The translations under genes were made by a program, and so were the position numbers. Below are positions 14,665 through 28,516 of a DNA stretch of 32,163 nt, in pieces. Source of the DNA: Planctomycetota bacterium. Its GTDB lineage: Bacteria > Planctomycetota > Planctomycetia > Pirellulales > PNKZ01. Location: positions 1 through 32,163 of the forward strand of contig JAFLCO010000027.1 in the NCBI GenBank assembly GCA_017303535.1, in the 5' to 3' direction. Every line of letters begins with the position of its first letter. Within the stretch, counting starts at the first letter, position 1. The notes under the pieces are model-generated. The model did not search any database. It saw only the letters and a program-made list of their open reading frames with translations, and had not been told where the DNA came from.

Positions 14665-15399
14665 TCACGCGAATAACTGCTGCTGATGGGTTGGACGATC
14701 AGGCATCTCGTCCCACGTTTTGCCTTCCAGTTTGCGTCCTGTCTTCTTCTTGTTGACCCCACCCCATTGCTTGAAGAAAAACGGCACCTTTGCCTTTTTA
14801 CATTGATCGCGGATGTCAAGTACCCACACTTCGCTCATGGGTCGGCAGCCAGGGCCTGACTCTCCACCAACGATTGCCCAATGGACCCCTTCAAGATTCA
14901 TGTTTGGAAGCGGTCCGATTAACGGTTCGAGCGACAAGAACTTCGTCTTCGCACCCGTTCGGCGAAGATGGTCGATGCGCGACAAATACTTCTCGCTCTC
15001 AACGCTCACACCCATCCATACGTTTTCTGGCCACTCAATCGATGGGCTCAACTCTTCAAGACGGTCGGCGCGCTTGGTGAGCACTTGGAACTGATGCCAG
15101 TGAGCGCGACGCATGACGTCAAAAACCTGCTGGATATAATATTCAGGAATATCCCGGTGAAATAAATCACTCATCGAGTTGACGAAAATGACTTGCGGCT
15201 TCTTCCATGACAGCGGCTTTTCGAGCATGGATGGCTGAAGCGTCAGTTCGAAGCCATTACGGTAGTTCGCTTGCCCCATCGCCCTCAGCCGAAAGGCGAG
15301 GCGCTCTGCGTAGCAAAACTTGCAACCAGGGCTGATCTTATCGCAGCCGGTTACGGGATTCCACGTCGCTTCAGTCCATTCGATTGATGACTTGGACAT
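14665..15399 (-). CDS. Three-Cys-motif (DUF5131, phage Gp37/Gp68 family) protein
   Basis: A 244-residue protein opening [16 protein letters not shown] and carrying Cys19, Cys26 and Cys29 (CX6CX2CY), the 'three-Cys motif' expected to hold an iron-sulfur cluster in a radical-SAM-like barrel. Other family blocks are [11 protein letters not shown]-like [56 protein letters not shown] and FFFKQWGG. Its start is three bases after the stop of the tcmP-like gene, with GAGGT overlapping that stop, so the two are translated together. Family members occur in phages and genomic islands; the reaction is unknown. Base composition is more AT-rich than in the neighbours. Confidence 0.9.
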
Positions 15400-15402
15400 G
15401 GC

Positions 15403-16533
15403 CTACCTCTTTTTCTTTGGAAACGTCACTTCCACACGATCCGCAAACGTGCGAACGCCGTTCCGCATCTGCCGCTTTGCAGCTGGAGGATTGCAGGAGA
15501 TTAGTTCTTCTTCTTCCATCCCACGCAGAACGTCCTTGTAGTTTGCATCGATGAATCGATGCCCATAATTGTGCTCTTCGTAAATCTCACCCATCGTAAG
15601 CGTCTTGCCAGCGAACGTCTCCAGCAGCATCTCTTTCAATTCATCTAGCGGACGCGCGAAGTCGAACAGCAACCCCTCGTTCTTGTATGACGGGTTGTAT
15701 TCGAAGCTCGGGACGCCCTGGTCGTCCGACGAACTTTCTCGCGCCATCACGCCTTTCATGATCTTGTAGCCAAGCGGATGCTTGCTCACGAAAATAAGAT
15801 GGTGACTGGTTCGACTCCCGTCTGGTCGCTTGAAGCGGAACGGAAGCACGTACTTGCCGCCCATTTCGATAAGTGCCTCACAAATCGCCTCGACAATCGC
15901 GAGTTCTCGTTGCGCCGCATTCAACGTTTCTAATTTCGGCCGCAGCTCATCCGCACGCTCTTCGCCAAACAGCGCATTCATGTGTTCACGAACGATGGGA
16001 TTCGCAAGTCCCATGTTAATGCGCGTGTAATTAAAGAAGAAAATGCACTCGCAGGCCCAATCTTTAAGAACTGAGTTAATTAGCTTTAGAGAGAGGCCCT
16101 TGTATCCCCACGGATCAACGAAGAACAATGTGGGAACGAAGCTCATCCCCTCGAATTCTTTGACGATCTCGGAACCGACTTCTTCGTTGTCGACCTGCGG
16201 CTTGTACTTCAGCGTTTCAATTCCCGGCAACGATTCGATCGCGGCCTGAAGTGATTTGCTATTGTCCTCGTTCTTATCATTGAAAATTGTGACAAGCATC
16301 TGCCTCAGATCCGGATCGTCGATCGCTTCTTTCAAGACGAGCAACGGCGTCGAGGTGGTTCCATCCTTGTATCGTCCAGGCCCGGCGAACAGATCGAGGT
16401 ACGCGATCTTTTTGCTGCCGTACTTGTTGACGGTGGATTTGATCGCGGTGGCCCACGCCTTGAAGTATTTCCGCACGATAGCGGACTTCACTTCCGACTG
16501 TTCCTTCGCTTCGTCGAAGAACTGCTTCGCCAC
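15403..16533 (-). CDS. tcmP: Three-Cys-motif partner protein TcmP
   Basis: A 376-residue protein. The N-terminal FFDEAKEQSEVKSAIVRKYF block is typical of TcmP. DLFAGPG (about residues 47-53) resembles motif I of Rossmann methyltransferases, and FFVDPWGYKG (about 137-146) resembles a DPxx catalytic motif, so a methyltransferase-like fold is likely. A C-terminal part with TMGEIYEEHNYGHRF looks like a winged helix. GTG 16533 is chosen: GGGGAGA lies about five bases upstream and the family N-terminus begins right after it. An ATG at 16590 lacks a binding site and would run through the palindrome. It is encoded next to its three-Cys partner and divergent from a DUF4145 gene. Confidence 0.85.
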   Translation of the reverse strand: MAKQFFDEAKEQSEVKSAIVRKYFKAWATAIKSTVNKYGSKKIAYLDLFAGPGRYKDGTTSTPLLVLKEAIDDPDLRQMLVTIFNDKNEDNSKSLQAAIESLPGIETLKYKPQVDNEEVGSEIVKEFEGMSFVPTLFFVDPWGYKGLSLKLINSVLKDWACECIFFFNYTRINMGLANPIVREHMNALFGEERADELRPKLETLNAAQRELAIVEAICEALIEMGGKYVLPFRFKRPDGSRTSHHLIFVSKHPLGYKIMKGVMARESSSDDQGVPSFEYNPSYKNEGLLFDFARPLDELKEMLLETFAGKTLTMGEIYEEHNYGHRFIDANYKDVLRGMEEEELISCNPPAAKRQMRNGVRTFADRVEVTFPKKKR

Positions 16534-16560
16534 GCGTCTCTCCCCTTCAGGGACCACAGG

Positions 16561-16583
16561 TAGTATACACGTGTACAATACTA
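16561..16583. promoter_or_regulatory. Palindromic operator-like site in a divergent promoter region
   Basis: The perfect palindrome TACACGTGTA (16566-16575) is flanked by TAGTA on the left and TACTA on the right, the right flank being offset by three bases. It lies 28-50 bp upstream of the tcmP start and about 100 bp upstream of the DUF4145 start. A TATACT-like -10 for the minus strand (16562-16567) overlaps it, so a bound protein would block tcmP transcription. No regulator is encoded in the cassette. Confidence 0.5.
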
Positions 16584-16684
16584 TCGCCATACCGACAATC
16601 GCATCTTCGACGAATTCGTTGGTAGCCGCAACAGTTTCTAACTCTAATGGGCCAGATAATCAGGCTCATCCTGGTGGAGCGGCT

Positions 16685-18829: not shown

Positions 18830-21397
<2,568 letters not shown>

Positions 21398-21403
21398 TTA
21401 TTC

Positions 21404-21506
21404 GTTCAAGGTTCAGGGTTCGGGGTTCAGAGTTAAAGGGCGGCATCGCCGGGATTCAAGGTTCAAAGTCTTTCAACCCTGAACCCTGAACCGGTTAACC
21501 CTGAAC
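21404..21506. repeat. Inverted repeat upstream of gyrB (GGTTCAGGGTT type)
   Basis: GTTCAAGGTTCAGGGTTC and GGGTTCAGAGTTAAA on the left (21404-21437) are complementary to TTTCAACCCTGAACCCTGAA and GGTTAACCCTGAAC on the right (21471-21506). It lies 18 bp before the gyrB start and 17 bp after the stop of the DUF721 gene, so it is in the gyrB leader if the two are co-transcribed. Confidence 0.75.
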
Positions 21507-21510
21507 AGCG

Positions 21511-21543
21511 AGATTGGTTCGGTTCATCGAACCGAACCAATCT
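21511..21543. repeat. Perfect 15-bp hairpin overlapping the DUF721 stop codon
   Basis: AGATTGGTTCGGTTC (21511-21525) and GAACCGAACCAATCT (21529-21543) are exact complements around a three-base loop. The stop codon of the DUF721 gene (21524-21526) lies in the loop and stem end. No T-run follows on the minus strand, so it is not a classical terminator; RNA processing or attenuation between dciA-like and gyrB is possible. Confidence 0.8.
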
Positions 21544-21823
21544 TGCAGCGGATGTCGCGGATTTTTTCGTCCGGGAGCAGGTCCGCGAGTCGGGCTAGGA
21601 TTTGTTGTTTCTGAAATTGCAATTCTTGGGCGACCATCGAGTTCGCCACCGTGACTTCCAGCGTTCCCCGCTTCACGGGACCGACCCGAGTTTGCGGGCC
21701 CAGCTTCTCGCCGACCGCCTCGCGCCACGCCTCTTCCGCACTCTCCTCGGTGCGCACACGCGCATAACCGCGCCGAGCGTGCAACTCGGTGAGAATGTCG
21801 GCAAGTTTGCGAGGGTCGAACAT
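21524..21823 (-). CDS. DUF721 (DciA-like) protein, putative replicative helicase loader
   Basis: A 99-residue protein with the DUF721 fold: LADILTELHARRGYARVRTE, AWREAVGEKLGPQTRVGPVKRGTLEV (the conserved W...A.G..ia.h..p...r.g.L.v pattern), then MVAQELQFQKQQILARLADL. DciA proteins of this family bind the replicative helicase DnaB and are thought to load it in bacteria lacking DnaC/DnaI. ATG 21823 begins MFDPRKL; the TTG extension upstream reads through an inverted repeat and is rejected. It lies between dnaN and gyrB, the usual place for this gene next to recF, but recF itself is absent from the block. The C-terminal codons form the 15-bp hairpin. Confidence 0.85.
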   Translation of the reverse strand: MFDPRKLADILTELHARRGYARVRTEESAEEAWREAVGEKLGPQTRVGPVKRGTLEVTVANSMVAQELQFQKQQILARLADLLPDEKIRDIRCKIGSVR

Positions 21824-21835
21824 TTTTAGTTTTGT

Positions 21836-22042
21836 TTCACCACGGAGGCACAGAGGACACGGAGCCGGACAGAACACAAACACATTAGGGGACTGGGGGG
21901 ACGGAATTCGGGGACTTTGGAGACAAGGCAAAGGGAAGAAATTCATCATCAAATTCTTTCCGTCCCCTCAGTCTCCTGCCTTTTCGTCCCCCATTCTCCT
22001 CAAGTGTTTTCTCCTCCGTGTCCTCCGTGCCTCCGTGGTGAA
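21836..22042. repeat. Long inverted repeat between dnaN and DUF721 gene (CACGGAGGCACAGAGG type)
   Basis: The left arm TTCACCACGGAGGCACAGAG with the following GACACGGA (21836-21863) is nearly the reverse complement of 22015-22042 (TCCGTGTCCTCCGTGCCTCC...). Inside it is a second pair, GGGGACTGGGGGGACGGA against TCCGTCCCCTCAGTCTCC. The repeat begins seven bases after the dnaN stop and reaches within 12 bp of the next start. Phrases of this type are widely dispersed in bacterial genomes. Confidence 0.8.
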
Positions 22043-22049
22043 TCTCGGG

Positions 22050-23165
22050 TTAGCGATCTCGGGCCAGCGGCATGACGACGTAGCTGTAGCCGTCGTCGGT
22101 TGTGCAGACCGCCGCGCTCTCGCCGTCTTTCAGTTCCAGGGTGAACGTCTTCTCGCCGTCGAGCACGCGGAAGAAGTCGCTCACGTAGCGGGGGTCCAGG
22201 GCGATGGTGATCGCCGGGCCGTCGTAGGCGATCGGCAATTCGATCCGCGATTGGCCCGTCTCGGCGCCGCGACCGGCAAGGACGGCCTTACCGTCGGCGA
22301 AGGTGAAGTCGACGCCGCGGCTTTCTTCGCTCGTGACGATCGCCGCTTGCCGCACGGCCGAGTAGGCCTGGCCGACGACGAGTGCGATCTTTTGCGTACC
22401 TTCACGCTTCGGGAAGACGTCGCGCCATTTGGGGAAGCGGCCTTCTACGAGCCGCGAGTAGATCGTCGCTCGCGGGGTGCGGACGAGGATGTCGTTCGCG
22501 CGGGCCGCGATCTGCACTTCGGCGTCGCCGTCGGTGATCGAGCGTTCGATGAGTTGCATGGCTCGGGTCGGCACGATGGTCATCGTATCGGTGGGCTTGT
22601 AATTGCCCGCGGCCGTGGCGGGGCCTTTCATCACGGCCAGCCGGCGACCATCGGTGCCGACCGCCGTGAGTTCGCCGTCTTTGAACTCCAGCAGCACGCC
22701 GCCGAGCGCGTAGCGGCTGCTTTCGTTATCGGTGGCAAACACGGTACGGCGGATCAGTTCGCGGAGCAGACGAGCCGGCACTTCCAGATGGCCCCCTTCG
22801 CTAAACTGGGCGACCGTGGGAAATTCGTCCGGGTTTTCGGCGGGCAGGCGGAATTCGCTCCGCTCGCCGCGCACGACCGTGCCGCGTCCGTCGGTTTCGA
22901 TCTTGATGGTCGGATCGGTCGTCTCACGCAGAATTTGTCCGAAGCGAGCGACTTGCAGCAGAGCGCTGCCCGTGGCATCGGCCGTGATGCCCGGCACGGT
23001 GACGCGCATGCCGACTTCGAGATCCGTGGCCGTGAGCATGGCGCCGTCGTTGGTGACGTCGAGCTTGACGTTTTGCAGAATCGGCTTGGGGCTGCGGGCC
23101 GGCGCGACGGCGGCGGCCAGTTGGAACGCGGCCAAGAGTTTGTCACGCTCACAAGACACTTTCAT
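22050..23165 (-). CDS. dnaN: DNA polymerase III beta subunit (sliding clamp)
   Basis: A 371-residue protein matching the family length, with the three clamp repeats of about 120 residues. The N-terminus MKVSCERDKLLAAFQLAAAVAP and the C-terminal GYSYVVMPLARDR (the usual ending is Y.vMP.r) are diagnostic, as is ATDLEVGMRV near residue 45. The ring-forming clamp tethers polymerase III and other enzymes to DNA. It is the second gene of the dnaA-dnaN block, 446 bp downstream of dnaA, a much longer gap than in the usual dnaAN operon, so it probably has its own promoter in the candidate origin region. Confidence 0.96.
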   Translation of the reverse strand: MKVSCERDKLLAAFQLAAAVAPARSPKPILQNVKLDVTNDGAMLTATDLEVGMRVTVPGITADATGSALLQVARFGQILRETTDPTIKIETDGRGTVVRGERSEFRLPAENPDEFPTVAQFSEGGHLEVPARLLRELIRRTVFATDNESSRYALGGVLLEFKDGELTAVGTDGRRLAVMKGPATAAGNYKPTDTMTIVPTRAMQLIERSITDGDAEVQIAARANDILVRTPRATIYSRLVEGRFPKWRDVFPKREGTQKIALVVGQAYSAVRQAAIVTSEESRGVDFTFADGKAVLAGRGAETGQSRIELPIAYDGPAITIALDPRYVSDFFRVLDGEKTFTLELKDGESAAVCTTDDGYSYVVMPLARDR

Positions 23166-23611
23166 GTTTCAGTCCGTTGCTAAGGGCGAATTCCTCGCGG
23201 CGAAATTCGTTCGGCAGGCACTCCCTGTCGACGCTCGGTCGCTTGAAGGTTCTTCTCTTCTGTTATGTATTTCTAAATTCAGTAGAAGCAGGAATACGAC
23301 GACTCGGCGCGTTCATGCAGGTCGCCGGTCGGCGATAACAACTCTTGCCCGACGACGTTGCGCCGCGCGGCGCGGTGTGCAAAACTCGTTGCGCGGGCGT
23401 CGCGCGGGCCGTCGATGATTTGTCGATGGTTCGCGCGCATGTCGACGCGTCGCGTGCGGCCGTTGATCGCTGTTCACAACATCGCGATCGATCGACGATC
23501 GACGAACAACATTTCCCCAAAACCGTCCTCACTCTCCGTGGCGCCATCCGTGTTTCTCGGCAGTCCGTAATGCGTAATCGCCGGCGTAGCGGCCGTCGTT
23601 TAATCCCGTCG
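23166..23611. other. dnaA-dnaN spacer, candidate replication origin region
   Basis: A 446-bp stretch with no gene. It contains one exact match to the TTWTNCACA DnaA-box consensus (TTTTGCACA, minus strand, 23376-23384), a two-mismatch match (CTGTTCACA, 23470-23478), an AT-rich patch (about 23250-23300) that could serve as an unwinding element, and clustered GATCGA/ATCGACG repeats at about 23480-23515. The dnaA-dnaN gap is a common origin position. With so few boxes the assignment is tentative. Confidence 0.35.
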
Positions 23612-24862
23612 TCATCCTTGTTGCAATCGTTCGCGCAAGGCTGCGAGTGCGGCGCGCTGCGCCGGATCGAGTTCGTCTTGCGCTTCCAACTTCCGGCAGC
23701 TATGCAGCACCGTCGTGTGATCGCGGCCGCCGAAGTAGTCGCCGATTTCTTGCAGGCTCTTCTTCGTCAAACGACGGGCCAAGTAAATGGCCGTGTCGCG
23801 CGCGACGACGACCGAGCGCCGCCGCGAACCGCTTTTCAGATCGGCCGCTTTCAGCCCGAAATGTCGGGCCGTTTGTTCGACGATCTGTTTCAAGGTCGGT
23901 GCGGTGCCCGAGGGCTGCGCGTCGAGAAACCGCTTCATTTGCGGCACATTGATCGCCGGCGGTTCGTCGCCACGAACGGGAAACAGCAGGCCGGCGGCTT
24001 CGCGTCGCGCACGCTCCTTGGCTTCCGCTTCCAGCGACACGACGGTTCCGCGCAGCTCGCGGACGGTCGTCTCGCGATCGGCGGCCAAGAGTTCTAGCGC
24101 CTTCGGTTCCAATTGCAGACCGCGCTCTCGCGCGAGTTCCGCCAGAATCGTCAATCGCGACGACGACGACGGCGGCACGAGCCCGAACACGGCGCCTTCG
24201 GCGAAGCGGCCGACCAGCGCCGGGAGCAAAGTCTCAAACGTTTGCGGCGCGGCATCGAGCGTGACCACGACCGACGCGCCGCGCTGTGCGAGCACGTCGA
24301 GCGCGTGCAGGAGTTCCCATTGGGCCGGCGGCTTCGTCGCCAAACGGCCGGCGTCTTCGAGCACCAGCAGATCGGCGCCGCGAACGTGCCGTCGAAAGGT
24401 TTCGACGTCGTCGCGCTCCACGGCCTCGGCATAGCGGCGGGCAAACTCACTGCCGTCGAGCGTCACGATCACGTCGCCGGCCAAACGCGTGGACCATGCT
24501 TCGAGCAGGCCTTCGACAAGATGCGTCTTGCCGGTACCGCTCACGCCGTAGAGTACGAGCACGCCGCCGGCCGGTTGGGCCGCATCGCACCGTACTTCAT
24601 TGCCAAATTGCGCGTCGGCGACGAACTGTTGCACGCCGGCGAAGGCCAGTCGATTCTCTTCGCCCGCGACGAACCGCCGCCAAGCTTCCGGCAACTCTGC
24701 TTCCGGCAACGAAACTTCCATGTCACGTTCCTCGCCGACACTCACAATCGCGCGCATCGCTTCGCCGATCGGCTGCGAAAGTTCGCGCGAGAAATCGGGT
24801 TGCGAGAGTTCGAACACGTCGATCCGTCCGGCGTGGGGCGCGAGGCGAAAACGAGGCCGCAA
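23612..24862 (-). CDS. dnaA: Chromosomal replication initiator DnaA, without recognisable domain I
   Basis: A protein of up to 416 residues. The AAA+ domain has Walker A GVSGTGKTH (106-114), a variant Walker B LLVLEDAGRL (165-174, usually LLIDDIQFL), sensor 1 TLDAAP, and an arginine-finger position VGRFAEG (217-223). Domain IV carries the DNA-binding signature GGRDHTTVLHSCRKL (378-392), which strongly supports DnaA. The N-terminal ~60 residues show no domain I (DnaB/DnaA-DnaA contact). The start is uncertain: TTG 24862 has AAGGGG upstream; ATG 24757 would give 381 residues. No extension can restore domain I because a stop lies in frame at about 24932-24934. The protein binds origin DnaA boxes and melts the origin. 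Confidence 0.92.
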   Translation of the reverse strand: MRPRFRLAPHAGRIDVFELSQPDFSRELSQPIGEAMRAIVSVGEERDMEVSLPEAELPEAWRRFVAGEENRLAFAGVQQFVADAQFGNEVRCDAAQPAGGVLVLYGVSGTGKTHLVEGLLEAWSTRLAGDVIVTLDGSEFARRYAEAVERDDVETFRRHVRGADLLVLEDAGRLATKPPAQWELLHALDVLAQRGASVVVTLDAAPQTFETLLPALVGRFAEGAVFGLVPPSSSSRLTILAELARERGLQLEPKALELLAADRETTVRELRGTVVSLEAEAKERARREAAGLLFPVRGDEPPAINVPQMKRFLDAQPSGTAPTLKQIVEQTARHFGLKAADLKSGSRRRSVVVARDTAIYLARRLTKKSLQEIGDYFGGRDHTTVLHSCRKLEAQDELDPAQRAALAALRERLQQG

Positions 24863-24944
24863 AACGGCCCCTTTCGCGAACCGCTGAATATACCGGATTT
24901 GACGCCGACAAGCGACGGCAGAGGCCGTAATTCAACGCGAAAAA

Positions 24945-26117
24945 TCACCCGTCGGACGTGCGTCGCAAGCCGTTGAAAACACCTAGGATGCGCTCGGCGG
25001 CAAAGGCGATCTCGGCGCGGTCGGTCGTGAGCCCGACGCTGAACCTCAGCGAGCTTGCCAACTCCGCTTCCGAGCAGCCCATCGCGCGCAACGTCGGCGA
25101 CGGTTCGCTCGAACCGCTGGCACAAGCCGAACCGGTCGAACAGGCCACGCCGGCCTGGTCGAGCGCTAAAAACAACGCCTGCCGATCGGTGCCGACCATG
25201 GCGATGTTTAGTGTTTGCGGCAGCCGCGGCACCTCCGCGCCGTGAACGACGAATTCCGGGTGCGCCGCCGTGAGAAGTTTTTGAAGTTCATCGCGCAGCG
25301 CCGCCAGGCGGGCCGTACGTAGCGCTCGTTCACGCTGCCAAATGTCCAGGGCCGTACGCATGCCCATGACCAGCGCGGGCGACTCCGTGCCGGGCCGCAG
25401 CGCGTCTTGTTGAAAGCCGCCGAAGAGCAGGGGGGCGACCGTCGCGCCGCTACGCACGATCAAAGCTCCGATCCCCAGCGGTCCGCCGAACTTGTGCGCG
25501 GCGACCGTCATCGCATCGACGCCGAGTTGGCGAAAGTCGACGTCGATCTTTCCCACGGCCTGCACCGCATCGGTGTGCATCGGCACGCCGCGAGCCCGAC
25601 ACACGTCGGCCAGCATCGCAATGGGTTGCAGGATGCCGGTTTCGCTGTTCGCCAAGCCGATGGAGACCATGCGCGCGGGCTGCTCCAATCGCTCGGCCAG
25701 CGCCGCAGCCGACACGATGCCCGACCGCTCGACCGCCACGCGCTCGACGACTTCTCCTTCCACGGCGCAGTAATCGGCCGGACCTTGAACGGAAGGATGC
25801 TCGACTGCGGAAACGAGCAGTCTCGCAGAAGTCGGTGCTTCCCCGACTTTGCGGCCGAGGCAACGGACGGCCCAGTTGTTGGCCTCGGTGCCGCCGCTGG
25901 TGAAAATCACGCGATCGGCGTGGATTGACGATTGATCGAGCCCGAGGATTTCGCCGATGCGTTCCCGCGCCTCTTCGACGGTCCGGCGCATCGCCCGGCC
26001 GAAACCATGCTGGCTGGCCGTATTGCCGCAAGCCTCGCGGTTCACGCGGTCCATCGCCGCGGCCACTTCCGGCAGCAGCGGCGTCGTAGCGGCGTGATCA
26101 AGATAAACGCGGGTCAT
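24945..26117 (-). CDS. Cysteine desulfurase (NifS/IscS family)
   Basis: A 390-residue PLP enzyme. MTRVYLDHAATTPL is the classic N-terminus and fixes ATG 26117. FTSGGTEANN binds the cofactor phosphate, HTDAVQAVGKIDVD carries the PLP Asp region, and VAAHKFGGPLGIGAL contains the PLP lysine. The active-site loop CSTGSACASGSSEPS contains the nucleophilic cysteine that forms the persulfide. It releases sulfur from cysteine for Fe-S clusters or tRNA thiolation. No iscU, iscR or tRNA-thiolase gene is adjacent, so the target is undecided. It ends 82 bp upstream of dnaA on the same strand. Confidence 0.93.
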   Translation of the reverse strand: MTRVYLDHAATTPLLPEVAAAMDRVNREACGNTASQHGFGRAMRRTVEEARERIGEILGLDQSSIHADRVIFTSGGTEANNWAVRCLGRKVGEAPTSARLLVSAVEHPSVQGPADYCAVEGEVVERVAVERSGIVSAAALAERLEQPARMVSIGLANSETGILQPIAMLADVCRARGVPMHTDAVQAVGKIDVDFRQLGVDAMTVAAHKFGGPLGIGALIVRSGATVAPLLFGGFQQDALRPGTESPALVMGMRTALDIWQRERALRTARLAALRDELQKLLTAAHPEFVVHGAEVPRLPQTLNIAMVGTDRQALFLALDQAGVACSTGSACASGSSEPSPTLRAMGCSEAELASSLRFSVGLTTDRAEIAFAAERILGVFNGLRRTSDG

Positions 26118-26316
26118 GCCGGCAATCGTAGCGAGGCGGAGATTGAAGAAGCTCGCATTATCGCTGGAGGAGCACACTTAGGCGAGCACTGGGTGCAAGC
26201 GCTAGGGCTATCGCTGCGCGGCGACTGACATTGCGACCTTTTTGTCGCCGCTGCTATTCTCCGCGGCCCGCCGAATCGCTTGAAATCCGCCGCCGCGAGA
26301 ATACGGACTTTTGCTC

Positions 26317-27298: not shown

Positions 27299-28426
27299 AT
27301 GATGCGCGGCCTTAGGCCAACGACGCGATCGACCGGTTTGCCCGGTGCCGGCGCGCGCAGTCTGAGAGAGCGCTCGAATTTGCCGTCGGCCGACGGCCGA
27401 TCGTCGGCAGGCCGGCTGCCGATGGTCTTGCGCCCCCCCTATCGAGAGACGGCTACAAAGAAGGGGAAGGCGGCGTCGCGCGGACAATTTGTCCGTGACG
27501 CACGGATGGCTCGCGTCGAGGCGGTGTTGTTGCTCTCGGACGAGCCCCTGAATACTCGAAAAATAAGTCAGTTGGCAAACTTGGCGGATGGTACTGAAGC
27601 GCGTACATTAATCCGCCGATTGAACGAATTCTACGACCGCCAAGGAACGGCGTTCCGAGCGGAAGAGGCGGCCGGGGGCTTTCAGCTGCTGACGCGGCGA
27701 AAGTTCTCCGGCTGGTTGCGGAGGCTCGTGCGTACCCACGTCGAGGCTCGGCTCTCCACTTCCGCCTTGGAAACCTTAGCGGTTGCGGCTTATCGTCAGC
27801 CCGTCACGCGTGCCGAGATCGAAGGCATTCGGGGCGTGCAGTGCGACGAGATGCTGCGGCAGTTGCTGGAGAGGAATTTGGTGAAGATCGTCGGTCGCAG
27901 CGAGGAGCTGGGCCGGCCTTACTTGTACGGGACGACGAAGCGCTTCTTGCGGTTCTTCGGCCTGCGGCACCTCGACGAGTTGCCGCGCGCCGCAGAATTG
28001 CGAGCCCGCCGCGACGGCCCTGACACGGTCGCGACGGGGTCCGAGAACGAACAACAGGATTTAAGTACCGCTACGCAAGAGGAGTCTGCAGTGAGCATCG
28101 TTTTCGAAAACGAAATGGAACAGGAAGAAGACCTCAAGCGTCGTCGCCGCGGATTGGCTGATGACGTCCGCGCCGAAGACGACGATGACGACGACTTCGA
28201 AGAGGAAGAAGACGAAGACGACGACGATGATGAGGACGACGACGAAGAAGAAGAGGATGAAGAGTTCGAAGACGAAGACTTCGACGACGACTGGGAAGAA
28301 GTCGACGATGAAGATGAAGACGAGGACGACGACGAAGAAGAGGATGAAGACTGGGACGATGACGAAGAAGACGACGACGATCTCGACGATGATGAAGAAG
28401 AGGAAGAAGAGGACGACGAAGAGTAA
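27299..28426 (+). CDS. scpB: Segregation and condensation protein B with polyacidic tail
   Basis: Up to 375 residues. The ScpB core of paired winged helices spans about residues 69-235: RVEAVLLLSDEPLNTRKISQ, STSALETLAVAAYRQPVTRAEIEGIRG and GRPYLYGTTKRFLRFFGL are family blocks. ScpB joins ScpA and SMC in the chromosome-condensing complex. The last ~87 residues are almost only Asp and Glu (about 80), broken by a few aromatic residues. The first ~65 residues are basic and Ser/Arg-rich and may not be translated; ATG 27422 and ATG 27507 are later candidates and none has a good binding site. No scpA is adjacent. Confidence 0.9.
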   Translation: MMRGLRPTTRSTGLPGAGARSLRERSNLPSADGRSSAGRLPMVLRPPYRETATKKGKAASRGQFVRDARMARVEAVLLLSDEPLNTRKISQLANLADGTEARTLIRRLNEFYDRQGTAFRAEEAAGGFQLLTRRKFSGWLRRLVRTHVEARLSTSALETLAVAAYRQPVTRAEIEGIRGVQCDEMLRQLLERNLVKIVGRSEELGRPYLYGTTKRFLRFFGLRHLDELPRAAELRARRDGPDTVATGSENEQQDLSTATQEESAVSIVFENEMEQEEDLKRRRRGLADDVRAEDDDDDDFEEEEDEDDDDDEDDDEEEEDEEFEDEDFDDDWEEVDDEDEDEDDDEEEDEDWDDDEEDDDDLDDDEEEEEEDDEE

Positions 28427-28480
28427 CTCGTCGCCGCTCTAAATTCGCCGACTTCGGCTCGTCGATTCTGATAAGCCAAG

Positions 28481-28516
28481 GGCCGCCGCGCATGCAGTTG
28501 CGCGGCGGCCTTTTTT
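28481..28516 (+). terminator. Intrinsic terminator of scpB
   Basis: The perfect 11-bp stem GGCCGCCGCGC / GCGCGGCGGCC (28481-28491 and 28500-28510) with an eight-base loop is followed by TTTTTT (28511-28516). It lies 54 bp after the scpB stop codon. It is the only classical intrinsic terminator seen in the window, in contrast to the long inverted repeats at other gene ends. Confidence 0.9.

Follow-up and report, generated by a model that had tools for sequence, protein, structure and literature searches.

Is the strongly acidic extension at the end of a planctomycete ScpB a tail of that protein, or is it a protein in its own right that is read in the same frame? The question is raised by a stretch of 32,163 nucleotides from a Planctomycetota bacterium (henceforth the window), in which a reading frame on the forward strand encodes ScpB and continues into a long run of aspartate and glutamate. 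The reading that we develop below is that this run would belong to a small, very acidic and largely disordered protein (here called AP), with a putative ribosome-binding site and GTG start of its own inside the 3' part of scpB. The features of the locus are as follows.

27422..28426, + strand: frame of an A-type ScpB, running on into the acidic part (PF04079, TIGR00281)
27512..27988, + strand: ScpB domain (PF04079, 175 bits; AlphaFold2 pLDDT mostly >90)
28004..28090, + strand: open linker under almost no codon constraint, with the frame kept (codon-position rates 0.38/0.43/0.38)
28078..28084, + strand: putative Shine-Dalgarno sequence (SD) AGAGGAG, 6 nt ahead of the start
28091..28426, + strand: predicted acidic protein AP, internal in-frame GTG start at 28091-28093, 111 aa, charge about -78
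28175..28423, + strand: acidic stretch, residues 293-375, the densest part (76 of 83 residues D or E)
28292..28309, + strand: motif W-E-E-V-D-D inside the acidic stretch, kept among relatives
28478..28513, + strand: terminator-like hairpin 3' of AP, 15 pairs followed by a T-rich segment

That the frame encodes ScpB, as the initial annotation had stated, was borne out by two family models, as the mechanically called ORF (27299-28426, + strand) matched PF04079 with an E-value of 4.9e-51 (172.9 bits against a cut-off of 27.4) and TIGR00281 with 118.1 bits (cut-off 89.2). The mechanical ORF opens at 27299, but the real start of ScpB is likely the ATG at 27422, because the pattern PM[VLAG]LR.PY is kept at its Met in five relatives, which share little before that Met. 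The domain also matched PDB chain 3w6j_B (E-value 8.8e-35), and this sequence match supports the presence of two winged-helix domains since it extends across whole ScpB chains of known structure, 3w6j_B among them. The same genome (G000) encodes one ScpA and one SMC, as well as two ScpBs. The second ScpB, which has relatives elsewhere, is divergent and has no tail (G000:C56:11881-12366; L002/L168); at least two ScpB matches were found in 55 of 57 genomes of the order (a few of them being pieces at contig ends), with ScpA and SMC mostly single. In a quick tree of A- and B-type ScpB, built without bootstrap, the second (B-type) ScpB formed a clade of its own (17 rows, SH-aLRT 100; row L095 of that tree is a Pirellulaceae A-type sequence), and the frames at the B-type loci that we read stop only a few residues past the domain.

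Elsewhere in the window, gyrB, dnaN, dnaA and a gene for a NifS-like cysteine desulfurase lie together on the minus strand (18830-26177; the DnaA match, at 215 bits, is below the equivalog cut-off of 343.9), so that a replication origin probably lies nearby. Also on the minus strand (14668-16590), a DUF5131 gene adjoins one whose product has a GMT-like wHTH domain, a pair that we take to be of the kind found in candidate mobile or defence loci.

We compared 107 non-redundant loci of A-type ScpB. At 101 of them the ScpB domain is accompanied by an acidic protein, encoded in the ScpB frame in 62 (fused loci) and as a separate downstream ORF in 39 (split loci). The remaining six were either cut by contig ends (L018, L153) or came from other orders (L075, L076, L078, L080), and eight further loci of the order (6 fused, 2 split), which were left out of these counts, agree with the pattern. 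At the split loci the acidic protein lies in frame 0, 1 or 2 relative to scpB in 10, 14 and 15 cases, respectively, with start positions from -1 to 467 nt relative to the end of scpB at its stop. The two arrangements occur within a single genus, where one member of a sister pair (L113) is fused and the other (L115) has an in-frame TGA, after which 'GTG ACG ATT' is kept, the SD-GTG being retained. On the best tree (again a quick one without bootstrap) the fused label changes at least 13 times, with strongly supported branches forcing 2 of these changes only.

These comparisons bear on the test that had been put forward to refute a role for the tail, namely that close relatives lack it. Relatives with a tail-less ScpB carry the acidic protein just downstream, and the W-E-E-V-acid pattern was found there in genomes that seemed to have no tail. 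Tail loss was thus ruled out, as loci that are tail-less by ORF encode the acidic protein in another ORF; since apparent absence of the tail means a separate AP gene, the proposed test would mislead. More generally, surveys of tail presence or absence can miss genes of which the connection alone has changed.

The explanation that we prefer, and consider probable on the comparative sequence data, is that the locus yields two products and that AP is a partner of ScpB of some kind. As no stop codon parts ScpB and AP, two products would be expected: a ScpB-AP fusion by read-through, and free AP by internal initiation. AP would then work with A-type ScpB in the SMC-ScpA-ScpB complex; from the conserved adjacency and the recurrent in-frame joining we infer a partnership with ScpB/SMC.

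The strongest competing explanation, which we nevertheless regard as unlikely, is that AP has a job unrelated to ScpB (e.g., as a general polyanion or chaperone) and is merely co-transcribed with it, the fusions being tolerated noise. Such independence would accommodate an extra acidic protein with W-E-E-V, beside which no ScpB was found (L154; G048:C32:5500-11000, minus strand), and the small, free-standing acidic ORFs in some genomes of sister family f21, in which Phe recurs at regular intervals (L227, L228, L229, L230, L232), possible relatives of AP around which the 2-3 kb stretches that we read contained no ScpB. It would also fit the linker, where codon constraint is so slight that the fusion may, in some lineages, be no more than a consequence of losing a stop. 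What it leaves unaccounted for is the adjacency of ScpB at all loci other than the two truncated ones and the four from other orders, and the repeated in-frame joining with subsequent keeping of the frame, which suggest a working partnership. Specifically, in two clades that were picked from the tree as all fused, every linker can be read through in the ScpB frame (27 of 27 and 9 of 9 members, respectively), while the other two frames are open in 18 and 4 members of the first clade and in 2 and 0 of the second; linker lengths in both range from 63 to 231 nt and are all multiples of three. Single open linkers prove nothing, given that shuffled linkers stay open with a median probability of 0.28; among all 62 fused loci, frame +1 of the linker is open in 37.

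The strict W-E-E-V pattern matched 10 of 292 genomes of the phylum, 9 of which belong to the same order (9 of the 11 order genomes searched, G022 and G055 being missed), and its use as a phylum-wide marker was thereby ruled out. The tenth match (L196 in G189) is a 451-residue frame with a Lys-rich end and looks unrelated. Within the order, the pattern was also seen in a long repeat-like ORF elsewhere in a genome (L160) and, as W-E-E-V-D-D-D, in the acidic tail of a long coiled-coil-rich ORF (L159; G027:C2:9500-15000, minus strand). AP had no Pfam match and no PDB match in our family and PDB searches.

The two-product reading depends on the internal start. As our start chooser favours GTG preceded by an SD, the starts that it chose (60 GTG, 1 TTG and 1 ATG at fused loci; 32 GTG and 7 ATG at split loci) are a biased test, and the unbiased one is the Val column in an alignment of the proteins alone. 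This column was found in 59 of the 62 fused loci. The aligned codon was GTG in 58 of 62, with GTA, ATT, TTC and TTG once each; on inspection, exceptions L005 and L006 proved to be misaligned, yet with SD and GTG present, while L022 has an SD with a TTG start and L063 an SD with an ATG start. The background share of GTG among Val codons of the same ORFs is 27% (369/1362), and for three Val columns that are conserved within the ScpB domain it is 47, 37 and 33%. The codon at the SD position ends in G at all 62 fused loci, with K (31), E (28), Q (2) or A (1) as the encoded residue. When loci were thinned by ScpB identity to 80, 70, 65 and 60%, GTG was retained in 31/33, 18/18, 11/11 and 5/5 representatives, for which the probabilities by chance are about 1e-15, 6e-11, 6e-7 and 0.0015, respectively, the last of these, from five representatives, being weak. 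Among the representatives with less than 70% identity, GTG came with an SD core in 18 of 18; of the codons in the ScpB domain that resemble a start and are in frame, 12 of 965 have such a core. A search for the corresponding anti-SD 3' end of 16S rRNA (GGATCACCTCCTTT) found it in the genome that the window comes from and in 35 of 54 relatives; in the other relatives the 16S end may be unassembled or differ by one base.

Within the window's own genus group, nucleotide differences at codon positions 1, 2 and 3 were 0.52/0.48/0.42 for codons -15 to -6 before the start, 0.13/0.13/0.00 for the three codons preceding it, zero for the start codon itself, and 0.32/0.30/0.68 for codons +1 to +10. On these rates, conservation of the nucleotides peaks abruptly at the SD-start region, with a drifting linker on one side of it and a coding stretch on the other. 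The locus thus has a conserved in-frame SD and start inside an ORF, i.e., the arrangement of a Cas11-type gene. An SD-GTG pair can be weak or unused, which is a point against internal initiation; even so, we judge that the internal start is very probably used, and that both products are likely to be made in fused genomes.

Another alternative is that the acidic part is only a long C-terminal tail of ScpB, which would mimic DNA or behave like a chaperone, and would do so in cis alone. In favour of it, the ORF in the window is open throughout, whole clades keep the fusion frame, and in sister family f21 nine ScpBs that we read have moderately acidic extensions of 40-66 residues (38-56% D/E) with no conserved internal start (in three of the nine, a loose SD accompanies some start-like codon). 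We nonetheless hold a tail alone to be improbable, as the acidic protein is a separate ORF in 39 of 101 loci and the nucleotides of the internal SD-start are conserved although the residues that they encode change. The original description of a ScpB tail therefore holds for the reading frame of this locus, and falls short in that the acidic part has its own SD and GTG start and is elsewhere a separate gene. In family f95, the nine ScpBs read have tails of 0-15 residues. No ScpB match was found in 20 listed genomes of family f22 (a further four match-less genomes being unnamed), unlike the other families of the class, nearly all of which have two ScpBs.

The acidic stretch was real as initially described, with small corrections: instead of about 80 of the last 87 or so residues, exactly 77 of the final 87 residues of the ScpB ORF are D or E, and the tract, which had been placed at 28140-28426, was begun some 35 bases early, its densest part opening at 28175. 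Residues 293-375 comprise 42 D and 34 E, the remainder being 3 F, 2 W, 1 V and 1 L. The acidic codons are mixed (31 GAC, 25 GAA, 11 GAT and 9 GAG), and the stretch is therefore not a fresh expansion of a single unit. A search of the whole genome with (GAN)20, allowing up to 2 mismatches, gave 27 overlapping matches, all on one strand and all within 28175-28364 of the window; by that pattern the tract is unique in the genome, and the confinement of the matches to it argues that the acidic stretch is not due to chance. The charge of AP is close to the median of the acidic proteins (-80). W[EKD]EV[DE] is present in 88 of the 101 acidic proteins, and in a 50-sequence alignment W267, E269, V270 and D272 are nearly invariant.

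Within the own genus group, differences in the acidic part were 0.075/0.081/0.467 at codon positions 1/2/3, and D or E was replaced by another residue in about 2% of pairs (8% in the Rhodo2 group). The low rates at the first two positions and the rare loss of D/E indicate that AP is constrained for acidity; judged by these substitutions, its acidity is under purifying selection, and the acidic part is widespread. A neutral, functionless expansion of trinucleotide repeats, for which one could cite the low complexity of the tract (TRF reported only degenerate period-3/6/30 arrays with 66-70% matches) and the variation in length among species (89-197 aa), is very improbable and was rejected on these codon-position rates and on the conservation of the W-E-E-V motif.

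How might such a protein act? The SMC-ScpA-ScpB complex must capture and release DNA. With its charge concentrated on 111 residues beside a complex of this kind, AP has the strong negative charge of a DNA mimic, and a DNA-competing polyanion is the simplest model. Under this model, AP would cover the basic surfaces that bind DNA, both as a tethered part of the fusion and, in trans, as the free protein, and would thereby tune DNA loading or release. We put forward this action on SMC-ScpAB tentatively, as a possibility that falls short of even chances, and the broader proposal, that an order-wide, host-encoded DNA mimic sets in cis and in trans the DNA held by the SMC-ScpAB condensin, is more doubtful still. 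In an AlphaFold2 model of the fusion, run on an alignment of 50 of the 60 complete fused sequences, the ScpB domain was confident, a helix near the N-terminus of AP was weakly predicted, and the acidic part was disordered (pLDDT about 43-55) and did not dock; a partner could order it. Downstream of AP, the region contains 3 hairpin sites against a mean of 2.0 in shuffled sequence, so that the terminator-like hairpin is credible through its long stem only.

If free AP is indeed produced, apparent ScpB tails have been hiding a conserved, order-wide planctomycete protein, and ScpB gains a partner. The fused, separate and (in one genome) orphan forms of AP would then provide a natural test of whether bacterial condensins are controlled by polyanions. 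We found no report of an acidic ScpB tail or of an internal scpB start in open-licence full texts, a body of literature outside which most subscription papers fall.

Among known systems, the organisation of the locus most resembles that of Cas11b, which is described as an internal, in-frame translation product of cas8b and shown as such by experiment (PMC11899642). In both cases a single ORF would encode a long protein together with a short C-terminal product, translated from an internal start, that serves the same complex. Cas11b starts at an internal Met, whereas AP starts at a GTG predicted from sequence; AP is a polyanion and is a separate gene in relatives. With respect to the proposed action, the nearest counterpart is gp5.9 of phage T7, a DNA mimic that blocks the DNA cleft of MukE in MukBEF (PMC7617805). 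The likeness is that gp5.9, as proposed for AP, is small and acidic and targets an SMC complex of bacteria; gp5.9 is viral and folded and its binding has been shown, whereas AP is host-encoded and predicted to be disordered, with much longer D/E runs. A third parallel is the acidic linker of MukF, which is bound in part by MukE (PMC5812716) and which is likewise unstructured and belongs to an accessory protein of an SMC complex. The MukF segment is internal to the kleisin, while AP is attached to or lies beside ScpB and has a predicted start of its own. Finally, compared with known ScpB (PF04079, TIGR00281, 3w6j_B), the protein in the window has the same ordinary N-terminal domain, and differs in carrying AP in frame and in sharing its genome with a divergent, tail-less second ScpB.
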